Source: a virus. From it: 35,870 nt of DNA. A program made the position numbers and the translations under genes. Every line of letters begins with the position of its first letter. Position 1 is the first letter of the stretch. Under the pieces are notes generated by a model that had not been told where the DNA came from, made no database searches, and saw only the letters and a program-made list of their open reading frames with translations. This document shows, piece by piece, positions 5,961-32,078 of this stretch. The stretch spans positions 1 to 35,870 of IMG/VR virus record IMGVR_UViG_3300048065_000257. One strand, written 5' to 3'.

Positions 5961-6887
5961 TTAAGCGTAATAAACAATCTCTGCACCAAATCCGTACTGG
6001 ATACCAGCAGTAAATCGTGCAATTACTCTTACGTTCTGAGAACCATCAAGGTCAGCCATATCTAAAACTTTTACTTGGTTTAAATCAGATAAAACACCTG
6101 TACCGAAGTATAAGTTTGAAGACTGAGCAGCTACCATTTTGTTATCTCCAAGACCGTTAGCCATAAAGATAGAGATTCCATCGAAAGATAACGCTCCGTT
6201 GTCATACCATTGAGTACCTTTGTTGTCAGTACCAGCGTTTGACGTTGCAGCAACACTAAATCCACCTAAAGCTCTAACGTAAGCTTTCATAACGTTTTTA
6301 GAAACGTATAATTTAAGGTCTTCTTTTCCGTAGATAGCAGAAGGAATAGCGTCTACTACTTTCCCCATCTCTTCGATAACGTTAGCAGCAGTAACAGTAG
6401 TTCCAGTTACGCTATTTACAGTTCCATCAGCAGCAAATAAAGTAGTAAATCCATCGAACTGTCCAGCAGTAGCGTTAGCTCCGCTCCAGATAGTGCTTTC
6501 CATTTCTTCAGCTACTTTAGCAGCAACGTGAGCTACTAAATAATCAGCAAAAGATGGAGGTAAGCTGTCAAATGCAGAATATCCCATAGAGATAGCATCC
6601 CAGTCAGAACGAAAATCGTCTTTACAAAGTTGTAAGTTAACTTGGAAAGTTTCTGGCTCAAGAATTCTTTCATCAAGAGTTACAGAAGAGCTGTCTGTAA
6701 AGTCACAAGTGTCATCAGCAATCAAAGTACCTGTAGCAAGTGATTTTATAACAGCTTTAAATTTAATGTTTGGTTTAACGCTTACACCACCATTTTCAAT
6801 AGTGTTAGCAGATAATAATGCAGCAGAGATAAAGCCTTGCAATTTCTCACCAGCATAAGTTGTAGTAATAGTTGTTGTAGTTGCCAT
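5961..6887 (-). CDS. Major capsid protein, 308 aa
   Basis: The size (308 aa), position after an acidic scaffold gene and overall character (Ala/Thr-rich, no membrane segment) fit an HK97-fold capsid protein. Features include a flexible N-terminus ('ATTTTITTTYAG'), 'ILEPETFQVNLQLCKDDF' near residue 80, 'DYLVAHVAAKVAEEME' (spine-helix-like), 'LYVSKNVMKAYVRALG' (P-domain-like) and a C-terminal 'RFTAGIQYGFGAEIVYYA'. The codon choice differs slightly from neighbours, with more GTT/GCA, as expected of a highly expressed gene. A strong terminator follows. Fold assignment is from family knowledge. Confidence 0.85.
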   Translation of the reverse strand: MATTTTITTTYAGEKLQGFISAALLSANTIENGGVSVKPNIKFKAVIKSLATGTLIADDTCDFTDSSSVTLDERILEPETFQVNLQLCKDDFRSDWDAISMGYSAFDSLPPSFADYLVAHVAAKVAEEMESTIWSGANATAGQFDGFTTLFAADGTVNSVTGTTVTAANVIEEMGKVVDAIPSAIYGKEDLKLYVSKNVMKAYVRALGGFSVAATSNAGTDNKGTQWYDNGALSFDGISIFMANGLGDNKMVAAQSSNLYFGTGVLSDLNQVKVLDMADLDGSQNVRVIARFTAGIQYGFGAEIVYYA

Positions 6888-17799: not shown

Positions 17800-17899
17800 G
17801 GGGGGCATCATATTAAACATAGAACTGTTTCCAAATATATTTCTGTAATCAATAAATCAGTTTTAGTCAAAAAGAGTTTTGACCCCCATCATATTAAAC
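17800..17899 (+). repeat. Two copies of the G/C-tract + TTAAAC element, one on each divergent promoter
   Basis: Copy 1: G6 (17800-17805), 7 nt, TTAAAC 17813-17818. It falls at the expected start point of the minus promoter. Copy 2: C5 (17883-17887), 6 nt, TTAAAC 17894-17899. It fills the spacer of the plus promoter. The G and C tracts could also pair with each other. The placement suggests operators. Confidence 0.7.
17832..17860 (-). promoter_or_regulatory. Candidate late-operon promoter
   Basis: TATATTTG on the minus strand (17839-17832) matches TAnnTTTG exactly. CTG at 17860-17858 is a one-mismatch -33 element with an 18-nt spacer. The expected start is near 17826, giving a leader of about 345 nt before the first late gene at 17480. 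Confidence 0.5.
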
Positions 17900-30373: not shown

Positions 30374-30799
30374 TCACTTAACGTGTAATGACATCGGTTT
30401 AAGGTCGTCAGTATCAAAGTAAACAAATTCATCACAAAGACTAATCCTAGTGACTCCTCTCATTATTAAACCTCTTACTAACTTTAATCTTTTCATATTA
30501 TTTATGATTCTAATTTTAACACCTAATCCAACTCTATGTGGATTTTTACTTGTTAATGCTATTCTGTCTGCATGAGACTTACAAGTATATGCTAACTTTA
30601 TATCAAACCTCATTCTTTCTTCCTGTGCTATCTCATCTAATATAAACACAGGTAATCTTTCCATAAGATTCTTTCCTGTCTTAATACTACAACGCCCACA
30701 TTTACACATAAATTGAGACCAAAGTAACTTTCTTAACCCCTCTTTATCTTCCTCTTCACTATATCCTATCTCATATTGTGGGCGATGTAATAATGACAT
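30374..30799 (-). CDS. Degenerate M15-peptidase-like protein, 141 aa
   Basis: The layout follows peptidase M15: 'FMCKCGRC' (30-37), 'LPVFILDEIAQE' (49-60), 'YTCKSHADRIALTSKNPHRVGLGVKIRI' (71-98), 'EFVYFDTDD' (124-132). In active members the zinc ligands are His and Asp of 'SxHxxGxAxD' and a later His in 'HxD'. Here His88 remains, but the Asp position is Lys95 and the late His is Tyr127. Two of three ligands are therefore lost, so peptidase activity is unlikely. It is a lone unit with its own -7 element and terminator, next to a divergent ncRNA promoter. It may be a binding or regulatory protein. Confidence 0.6.
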   Translation of the reverse strand: MSLLHRPQYEIGYSEEEDKEGLRKLLWSQFMCKCGRCSIKTGKNLMERLPVFILDEIAQEERMRFDIKLAYTCKSHADRIALTSKNPHRVGLGVKIRIINNMKRLKLVRGLIMRGVTRISLCDEFVYFDTDDLKPMSLHVK

Positions 30800-30806
30800 A
30801 ACAATA

Positions 30807-30814
30807 CAAATATA
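30807..30814 (-). promoter_or_regulatory. Candidate -7 element of unit A
   Basis: TATATTTG on the minus strand (30814-30807), only 7 nt before the ATG at 30799, so the transcript would be nearly leaderless. The upstream -33 region is a T run with no TTG. Confidence 0.35.
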
Positions 30815-30869
30815 TTATATATATACGTTATAAAAAAATACTAGTTATTAACATTGTTTATAAGTTTAC

Positions 30870-30900
30870 TTGACTTTACATGAAAAATGTAGTAACTTTG
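30870..30900 (+). promoter_or_regulatory. Consensus promoter driving a plus-strand RNA
   Basis: TTG at 30870-30872, 20-nt spacer, TAACTTTG at 30893-30900, a full match to TTG/TAnnTTTG. Expected start is near 30906. It points against every gene around it. Confidence 0.75.
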
Positions 30901-30905
30901 CTTCA

Positions 30906-31041
30906 ACTTTATAAAGACAGCCACAAGGCTCACAAAGCCGAAGTGGCAATATTGTCTTCCGTATAAATCAAGTATTTCTATGAAATACGATTTCTACTCT
31001 CTACAAAGTCAATGTATACAGGATAGCTATGTTTTATAGCC
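30906..31041 (+). ncRNA. Structured non-coding RNA on the plus strand, about 135 nt
   Basis: No ORF of note. Hairpin 1 has three nested helices: AAGACA/UGUCUU (30914-30919 with 30953-30958), GCCAC/GUGGC (30920-30924 with 30943-30947) and GGCU/AGCC (30927-30930 with 30936-30939). Hairpin 2 is a compound stem: AAAUC/GAUUU (30965-30969 with 30989-30993) stacked on GUAUUUC/GAAAUAC (30972-30978 with 30982-30988) with loop UAU. A third hairpin, GCUAU-GUUUU-AUAGC (31026-31040), closes the region. No clear terminator follows, so it may read on as antisense to the holin gene at 31087. Folded by eye; no known RNA family recognised. Confidence 0.65.
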
Positions 31042-31072
31042 AAAAAAGGGGCTTAATGTTAAACAAACCCCC
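31042..31072 (-). terminator. Terminator after the holin gene (late operon end)
   Basis: Minus strand: GGGG/CCCC stem (CCCC 31069-31072 with GGGG 31048-31051 on the plus strand) with a long AT loop, then a 6-T tract (31047-31042). The loop is part of a TTAAAC element. Confidence 0.6.
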
Positions 31073-31083
31073 TAATATTAAAC
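31048..31083 (+). repeat. Two TTAAAC elements behind the holin gene
   Basis: G4-7nt-TTAAAC (31048-31064) and C5-5nt-TTAAAC (31068-31083), starts 19 nt apart. They form a tract-paired hairpin as in the cluster at 21.2 kb. The element ends 3 nt before the holin stop codon at 31087. Confidence 0.75.
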
Positions 31084-31086
31084 AAA

Positions 31087-31563
31087 CTATTTCTTCCAGT
31101 TCTTGGTAATTTTCTCAGCACTTCTTGCACCAAAATAACCACCATAAACAAGTAATAGTAATGAAGATAGTAAATCTATCCAGTTAGAAGCTATTTTAAA
31201 GCCTTCTAAGGAACTATCTAGTATTATGTATATAAACAAGGTCAATGTTAAAAAAGCTAGGCTTAGAGGTCTTATATTTTTACTTAGCCAACTATCAGAA
31301 TTCATATCTGCTTCCCAACGTTTTGTTGACTCTTGCATTTCAATCATATCATATCTTAGCTCTTCTAGTAATAACTCTTTATCAGCTTCGCTGAGTTGTT
31401 TATTACCTTCTATTTTACCTGCAAGTTCTTTTAACTGTTCAATACCAGTTATACCTCCAGCTATAGATAATATATCTGGTGCTACTTCTTTACCTTGTTT
31501 AACTAACCAACGTAATGCATCACCTACTCTTGTTGTACCGTTCTTTTTCTTATAATCACCCAT
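31087..31563 (-). CDS. Holin of the 3-TM (GTA holin-like) superfamily, 158 aa
   Basis: The first 95 residues are soluble and helical ('GKIEGNKQLSEADKELLLEELRYDMIEMQESTKRWEADM'). These are followed by 'SWLSKNIRPLSLAFLTLTLFIYIILD' and a further pair of hydrophobic segments ('NWIDLLSSLLLLVYGGYFGARSAEKITK'). This soluble half plus 'SWLxKxIRPL' and 2-3 membrane helices matches the GTA_holin_3TM family, which makes the hole for endolysin release. Overlaps the endolysin gene by 8 nt. Confident on family, inferred on timing. Confidence 0.8.
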   Translation of the reverse strand: MGDYKKKNGTTRVGDALRWLVKQGKEVAPDILSIAGGITGIEQLKELAGKIEGNKQLSEADKELLLEELRYDMIEMQESTKRWEADMNSDSWLSKNIRPLSLAFLTLTLFIYIILDSSLEGFKIASNWIDLLSSLLLLVYGGYFGARSAEKITKNWKK

Positions 31564-31930
31564 TCCACCTTGCTTTAGTTTTTCTTATATCATAATGTAC
31601 AAACGTATCATACAAACCTAAACCACCTTGTAGCATATGCCCCATATCTATTAAGTCCTCTATAATTACAAACACCTCTGCTGGTTTTAAACTCTGTATA
31701 GTTATATCAGCAGCTTTACCTAACATATGCTGTGATTTTTTAGATGAGCCAGATATTTTAGCATTATACTCTGGACATCTATAACCACTATTAATAGTTA
31801 TAGGTCTACCAGTATAATCTCTAAGAAATTGTAATTGACTAGCAAGTTTAATTATGTTTTCATACACCTTTAAAGGCATATCACAACCACACTTGCACTT
31901 GAATTCTTTTAACTTAAAGTTCTTTGTCAT
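31556..31930 (-). CDS. Endolysin, M15 (D-Ala-D-Ala carboxypeptidase-type) peptidase, 124 aa
   Basis: Start at 31930 ('MTKNFKLKEFKCKCGCD') rather than 31972, as it fits the family length and the overlap with the upstream gene. The zinc-binding motif 'SQHMLGKAADI' gives His68 and Asp75, and 'FVHYD' gives His112. 'INSGYRCPEYN' (46-56) is the substrate-site segment. It would cut peptide cross-links of host peptidoglycan at lysis. No signal peptide, so it needs the holin encoded next. Its start overlaps the upstream small TM gene by 17 nt. Confidence 0.85.
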   Translation of the reverse strand: MTKNFKLKEFKCKCGCDMPLKVYENIIKLASQLQFLRDYTGRPITINSGYRCPEYNAKISGSSKKSQHMLGKAADITIQSLKPAEVFVIIEDLIDMGHMLQGGLGLYDTFVHYDIRKTKARWNG

Positions 31931-32078
31931 TCTTTTTATGATTAGCGTATATCTTTTGGAGTGTATATACAATAGAAGCCAATAACAGTATAACCTTTAA
32001 ACTGTTCTCAACATGAGTAAAGCTAACACCTAAAGTGATAGCATTTAAACAAGCTACTTTCAAATCGCTTAGGCTCAT
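31914..32078 (-). CDS. Small one-TM protein, possible second holin, 54 aa
   Basis: ATG 32078 overlaps the preceding stop (ATGA); TAA 31914-31916. The N-terminus is mildly amphipathic ('MSLSDLKVACLNAITLGVSFT'), one membrane helix follows ('VILLLASIVYTLQKIYA'), and the tail is basic ('NHKKNDKEL'). That is the layout of small class II/III holins, and it directly precedes the endolysin gene. Two holin-like genes flank the endolysin, so one may be an antiholin or regulator. Function inferred. Confidence 0.55.
   Translation of the reverse strand: MSLSDLKVACLNAITLGVSFTHVENSLKVILLLASIVYTLQKIYANHKKNDKEL

Follow-up and report, generated by a model that had tools for sequence, protein, structure and literature searches.

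The OOP RNA of phage lambda is a small RNA that has its own promoter at a regulatory junction, is transcribed opposite to the early/replication genes, and is antisense to cII. The CI RNA of phage P4 and the C4 RNA of phage P1 are small, structured regulatory RNAs from phage control regions, which pair with a nearby leader. The put RNA of phage HK022 is a hairpin RNA directly behind an early promoter that acts in cis on the same-strand genes downstream, and the packaging RNA of phi29 is an early structured RNA conserved by structure more than by sequence. Finally, RNA anti-CRISPRs (Racrs) are solitary structured RNAs behind a phage promoter, as described in the accessible text of PMC10651486. 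The locus analyzed here carries a predicted small RNA that resembles each of these in one respect and differs from it in another.

The window, i.e., the whole stretch of DNA that was analyzed, is a complete IMG/VR virus record of 35,870 bases. All of its genes with recognized functions lie on the minus strand: those for the portal, terminase large subunit, tail proteins, M15 endolysin and holin, and those for an ERF annealing protein, a helicase-like protein, a RusA-like resolvase, a sigma-factor-like protein, a metallophosphoesterase and an exonuclease. None of the 40 ORFs scanned in the window was identified as an integrase or repressor, and its GC skew was uninformative; the life style of the phage would be lytic. 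The host is probably a flavobacterial member of Bacteroidota, given the promoter type and the presence of a relative of the holin in Nonlabens phages. The features at and around the RNA are the following:

30374-30799, minus strand: gene for a 141-aa protein, the first gene of the divergent early/replication block
30807-30814, minus strand: TATATTTG, candidate -7 box of the divergent promoter of the 141-aa gene
30844-30864, no strand assigned: imperfect inverted repeat GTTATTAAC-ATT-GTTTATAAG, between the two promoters
30870-30900, plus strand: Bacteroidota-type promoter TTG-N20-TAACTTTG (TTG at 30870-30872, TAACTTTG at 30893-30900)
30905-31041, plus strand: small RNA, both ends predicted (the 5' end from the -7 box, the 3' end somewhere between about 31041 and 31075)
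30920-30947, plus strand: hairpin 1, covarying, with GCCAC/GTGGC, a purine internal loop AA/GAA, GGCT/AGCC and the loop CACAA
30961-30997, plus strand: hairpin 2, compound, with the loop TAT, in the window's close group only
31015-31038, plus strand: 3' element TATACAGGATAGCTATGTTTTATA, the most conserved part of the family, with the common form TAYAGGATAASTATGTTC
31046-31073, minus strand: intrinsic terminator of the lysis operon
31087-31563, minus strand: holin gene, convergent with the RNA
31556-31972, minus strand: M15 peptidase endolysin gene

The 141-aa protein shares 31% identity over 103 aa with M15 peptidases from other phages, matched no PHROG or Pfam family at E 0.001, and was present in only one of 397 genomes of one flavobacterial family (E 7.8e-9); it may be a degenerate relative of the endolysin. 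On its side of the junction, the box TAnnTTTG occurs within 110 nt in 43 of 50 homologous loci, with the full TTG-N17-23-TAnnTTTG in only five of the 50. The inverted repeat between the two promoters is a possible operator, and elements related to it by pattern were seen in 29 of the 50 loci. Elsewhere, the window features a recurrent motif, CCCCATNATRTTAAAC (minus strand GTTTAAYATNATGGGG), at 17883, 19540, 19559, 19590, 21156 and 21220, with looser copies at 17810, 21187, 31056 and 31075. The motif has a single orientation and lies in gaps upstream of minus-strand gene blocks, making it a candidate phage-specific promoter or binding site.

The initial annotation had proposed that a TTG-N20-TAACTTTG promoter drives about 135 nt of structured plus-strand RNA with no ORF. 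We found the promoter at the expected place, with TAACTTTG fitting the flavobacterial sigma-A -7 box TAnnTTTG, which in F. psychrophilum lies at -12 to -5 according to the accessible text of PMC9723704; given this position of the box, the RNA is expected to start near 30905. The stretch is likewise free of plus-strand ORFs of at least 50 aa and of any convincing ORF; a 26-aa ATG frame opening at 31029 on this strand is not coding by comparison across the family. At the other end, the terminator hairpin of the lysis operon may also end the plus-strand RNA.

The 135 nt from 30907 to 31041 fold with -31.4 kcal/mol (z -3.76) and none of 200 shuffles folded as well, which agrees with the earlier judgement that the folding is unlikely to arise by chance, as does the conservation of the promoter, the 3' element and hairpin 1. 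The minus strand of the region folds well too (z -3.5), and, since folding alone cannot choose between the two, the strand was assigned from the promoter. Strong overall folding is not a family trait, as z fell below -2 in only six of the 18 homologues tested.

Close relatives were gathered through searches of IMG/VR with the holin, the 141-aa gene and ERF, two of the three returning at least 80 matches. Among the matches listed, the close homologues at the same place show 81-87% identity over 191-214 nt in blastn (84% over 135 nt in L090); the contig L002 is identical over the RNA, and L091-L093 gave weaker nhmmer matches to it. An alignment search with the 141-aa protein extended this to 56 loci, 36-100% identical and including 12 close ones, of which 53 have at least 400 nt upstream of the 141-aa homologue and could be evaluated. 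Of these 53 loci, which, being related to each other, are not independent events, 47 have a plus-strand promoter of the form TTGAY-N16-20-TANNTTY at most 700 nt upstream of the 141-aa homologue; elsewhere, the pattern has 75 occurrences in 330,479 bp, both strands counted. In 43 of the 53 the promoter is followed by a long element of the GGRTAASTATGTT type, compared to three of 2618 160-nt control stretches elsewhere in those loci. GGRTA alone is weak evidence, for it is found in 45 of the 53 loci, yet also in 529 of the 2618 control stretches. A promoter-plus-element search over L002-L176 gave 50 matches, with overlapping loci counted repeatedly, versus two for the reversed control and 0, 0, 0, 1 and 0 for shuffles. 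In all, 50 distinct promoter-plus-element sequences were found among the phage loci gathered.

The promoter pattern is absent from six loci (L331, L336, L348, L349, L365 and L367), and four of the 47 with the promoter lack the long element (L355, L357, L364 and L366); among these, L364 has a one-base variant of the element, seen by eye, and the promoter match in L366 is likely a chance one. In L348, L349 and L355 there is apparently just a promoter-like stretch with a simple terminator-like hairpin where others have the full RNA. Some 370-390 nt upstream of the 141-aa homologue, L366 and L367 share an unrelated, near-identical plus-strand stretch that follows a promoter-like site, TTG...TATATTTG; the stretch has no Rfam match at gathering scores, and none was listed for either locus up to E 0.1. 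The contig L132 carries two copies of the RNA (652-862 and 6285-6495), each beside a 141-aa homologue and ERF, reflecting either a duplication or a chimeric assembly. The RNA is absent from the Nonlabens phages P12024L and P12024S (7.3 kb examined), where the related holin is 67% identical over 104 aa, and from the Riemerella phage PJA1 (31 kb examined). DNA similarity searches against phage records returned only four matches at E 0.3-0.9 for the RNA region and nothing for 23.9 kb of the window, while queries with the RNAs of two other groups gave weak, short matches with E of 0.04 or more among the matches listed. A scan with the hairpin pattern yielded no new member: it gave 52 matches in 52 new loci, never with the promoter in the preceding 90 nt.

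The 3' element, as TAYAGGATAASTATGTTC or a variant, sits in the last third of the RNA. Part of the element was fixed in the search pattern behind the 50 sequences, which inflates its conservation among them, and two scans that started from the motif carry more weight. First, 16 stretches of IMG/VR matched a 23-base pattern derived from the close group, and all 16 have the promoter upstream. These include L182, L183 and L189, from phages with a different middle part of the RNA; found by the motif alone, they are the same contigs as L340-L342, found by the protein alone. Second, the exact sequence TACAGGATAASTATGTTC was found in 25 stretches of IMG/VR (one contig being counted twice, as L399 and L409), with the promoter within 220 nt upstream in 22. 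Two further copies, L393 and L405, have only 84 and 106 nt upstream, at fragment ends, with the flanking sequence of the family present; the copy in L394 is unrelated and was set aside as a chance match. L397 has the promoter and element, with no visible hairpin, at another junction, namely upstream of small genes and a TerL 53% identical to that of the window; since, by a rough estimate, such an 18-mer should turn up a few times by chance in the collection, we take this locus as suggestive only. The spacing to the promoter varies, the TTG lying 92-159 nt upstream of the element, and the element occurs once in the window's record, even when three mismatches are allowed.

A looser 3' pattern hit 39 new loci, which were rejected: only L249, L250 and L257 had a promoter-like match, and no other likeness was seen. 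The element also has 31 matches in a scan of bacterial genomes, mostly in Bacteroidota, some within shared coding sequence and one set before what we take to be an aldolase-like gene in Flavobacterium. In 15 of the 31, a match to a looser promoter pattern lies no more than 300 nt away. We judged them by eye to be convergent, though, strictly, a host relative of the element might be among them.

The hairpins differ in how far they extend through the family. In most groups, the stem of hairpin 1 is followed by a 3x3 loop of the form GNA/GNA and then by two or three pairs, which are capped by a loop like YYCAAA. Across 14 hand-picked sequences, all six of its pairs show two-sided changes, the compensatory changes expected of a structured non-coding RNA, and 89.3% of the cells pair, versus 68.2% in shuffles and 13-46% when the partner is slid; as a counter-measure, eight further pair types were seen versus a higher shuffled mean of 9.7, and the count as a whole leans towards structure because the hairpins were chosen by eye. 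These 14 sequences (alignment A3) come from the 23 hairpins of alignment A2; the nine excluded (four of the window's group, L091/L092 and L343/L344/L350) have a different internal-loop size and are absent from the count. Covariation across homologues, which the initial annotation had put forward as a check, is thus found for hairpin 1. In the window's group, whose eight sequences keep hairpins 1 and 2, two of 27 predicted pairs are changed on both sides (A-U replacing C-G in hairpin 1, and U-A replacing it in hairpin 2).

Of the architecture described earlier, a three-tier hairpin 1 followed by a compound hairpin and a third one, the core of hairpin 1 stands, but its outermost tier, GAC/GTC, is not generally kept in relatives. 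Hairpin 2 with its UAU loop is present as described but confined to the window's close group of eight sequences, and is missing in L091-L095. The third (31026-31040) is not generally kept as a hairpin, although its sequence falls within the most conserved element of the family. Hairpin 1 itself is missing or unrecognizable in L397 and the L332/L182 group. When 66 sources were searched with a covariance model of the window's group, 24 matches came up at E values up to 5, one of them the window itself; by their coordinates, they all lie at the RNA locus. In held-out groups, the matches reached down to E 0.00014: L091-L093 were found at E 0.001 or better and eight of the ten in the L126/L140 group at E 0.003-0.13, with the rest being weak.

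In agreement with the initial annotation, which recognized no known RNA family, Rfam 15 gave no match at gathering scores in the window, in five further loci (two of them homologous) or in 15 homologous loci; at a loose threshold, the best matches at the RNA site were weak (E 1.3 and 3.9). Among the publications listed in the literature searches, we found no small RNA reported for Bacteroidota phages. The initial annotation's reading of a real, conserved and structured RNA with its own promoter and of no known family is supported by covariation, position and the motif-first scan, except for hairpins 2 and 3, which are local or not kept. The locus, the promoter sequence and the 3' element are conserved and hairpin 1 covaries; by comparison of these sequences the existence of the RNA appears well supported. 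We infer its transcription, early timing, action in trans and protein binding.

Our preferred reading, which we put forward tentatively, is that the RNA belongs to a new family of early, host-promoter-driven, trans-acting, protein-binding small RNAs of lytic Bacteroidota phages. Its members would be non-coding RNAs of roughly 80-160 nt in small, probably lytic phages, driven by a host-sigma-type promoter at the junction of a divergent early/replication block and a convergent lysis block. In most groups, the RNA would have a single hairpin on its 5' side, containing a purine-rich internal loop, and would carry the conserved element, commonly UAYAGGAUAASUAUGUUC, nearer its 3' end. It would act in trans, early in infection, either as a decoy or within a small RNP, with the element binding a protein of the phage or its host; hairpin 1 might serve as a 5' stabilizer or a second contact. 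Action in trans is favored because the spacing varies, the element is single in the window's record and the unit of L397 sits at another junction. Protein binding is proposed mainly because no pairing partner was found. The RNA could be any of what had been suggested earlier, a regulatory RNA, a decoy or part of a host-takeover system. More speculatively, and with doubt, these might be widespread takeover RNAs, in which a promptly made host-promoter RNA would capture a specific host (or phage) protein through UAYAGGAUAASUAUGUUC while the rest of the molecule diverges.

The foremost alternative, which we regard as possible though rather unlikely, is control in cis at the early/late border, exerted either by transcription of the plus strand or by an antisense overlap at the 3' end of the lysis mRNA. 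Either would block read-through into the early genes or restrain lysis early, with the RNA elements tuning termination. The gene order fits this: among the 50 distinct sequences, the RNA is divergent from a 141-aa homologue in 49 and convergent with a holin gene in 34, with an unlabelled 141-151-aa gene in 13 more, with nothing listed in two (cut off) and with sigma/RusA/helicase genes in one (an L132 copy). Moreover, in L116 and L343 the convergent gene has its stop directly beside the 3' element or overlapping it, and in several groups (L332, L183 and L345) the element forms an arm of terminator-like hairpins. A role in cis is also conceivable because the unit was not seen outside the synteny block save for L397, which could be chance. 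However, the gap between the element and the convergent gene ranges from about 0 to over 100 nt, the groups have weak or differently built terminators on the plus strand, and collision or antisense overlap needs neither a conserved element of 17-20 nt nor covarying stems.

An immunity-like antisense RNA of the P4 CI or P1 C4 kind, or an antisense sRNA acting in trans on early phage or host mRNAs, seems improbable. The position between the early promoter and the lysis genes would suit it and the seed could lie in the conserved 3' element; the Riemerella phage PJA1 has an integrase and other genes of the opposite strand between its peptidase gene and ERF. Against this, pairing of the element with gene start regions never went beyond the 5% tail of shuffled elements in nine phage loci, although it was better than the shuffled median in five of them, and no long match was found in the window. 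Four flavobacterial genomes have no perfect copy of the element, but matches with up to three mismatches exceeded the backwards control in all four (24/16, 42/13, 21/14 and 36/27), so that a host target by pairing is not dismissed. With rRNA as the partner, 16S was mostly masked, and for 23S one of five query motifs (cons_C) beat all 40 shuffles, which we did not count since ten tests were made.

It is quite unlikely that translation of a short ORF or minigene starts in the element (AGGAUAASUAUGUUC...), with the RNA as its leader. A frame from the element opens with ATG or GTG in 45 of the 50 sequences, and nine have ATG/GTG-TTC-TAA, like a two-codon minigene; but the other five have ATA or GCG there, the frames run from two codons to more than 13 with little in common between groups beyond MF, and none of the 44 window genes examined uses this start context. 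A coding role of the RNA thus appears unlikely.

We give very little credence to an RNA-based anti-CRISPR (Racr) or other mimic of a host RNA. The RNA is solitary, structured and directly behind a promoter, as are the Racrs in the accessible text of PMC10651486, and its stems differ between phages; but a repeat mimic should vary along with the repeats of its host, whereas the 3' element is constant, and Rfam gave no match. Further, model R1 was found in none of 299 genomes from the family of flavobacterium BBFL7, a search with stricter filters and no positive control, in a family that may not be that of the host. The sequence ATTTCTACT near 30990 resembles what we take to be a Cas12a repeat, and was rejected as such because it is altered in close relatives. 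Lastly, chance folding of AT-rich intergenic DNA, with which the 12 of 18 homologues no better than z -2 would agree, is already contradicted by the conservation of the promoter, element and covarying hairpin over neighboring proteins 36-94% identical.

Returning to the described systems, the predicted trans-acting RNA shares with HK022 put a hairpin directly behind the promoter, but it has no credible same-strand genes downstream: the downstream lysis and tail genes are all on the minus strand, with the plus-strand ORFs listed there being antisense to them. A put-type antiterminator was hence rejected, there being no same-strand gene for which it could be the leader. The phi29 packaging RNA is similarly an early structured RNA; the window phage, however, has an ordinary terminase large subunit and portal, and nothing links its RNA to packaging. 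The likeness to the Racrs of PMC10651486 (in its accessible text) lies in a solitary structured RNA behind a promoter, and the difference in the constant 3' element and the absence of a match to model R1 in the 299 genomes searched. Like P4 CI and P1 C4, the RNA is small, structured and from a phage control region, but no such pairing was found for its 3' element, and it has no Rfam match. Similar to lambda OOP, it has its own promoter and is read opposite the early/replication genes at a regulatory junction; in contrast to OOP, it overlaps no early gene, and no antisense target of its 3' element was found among the gene start regions of the nine loci compared. Small phage RNAs are a kind already known, whereas this family and its architecture appear new. 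The promoter and a short 3' element are kept while the adjoining protein falls to 36% identity, providing a precise handle on how Bacteroidota phages control early infection or their hosts.
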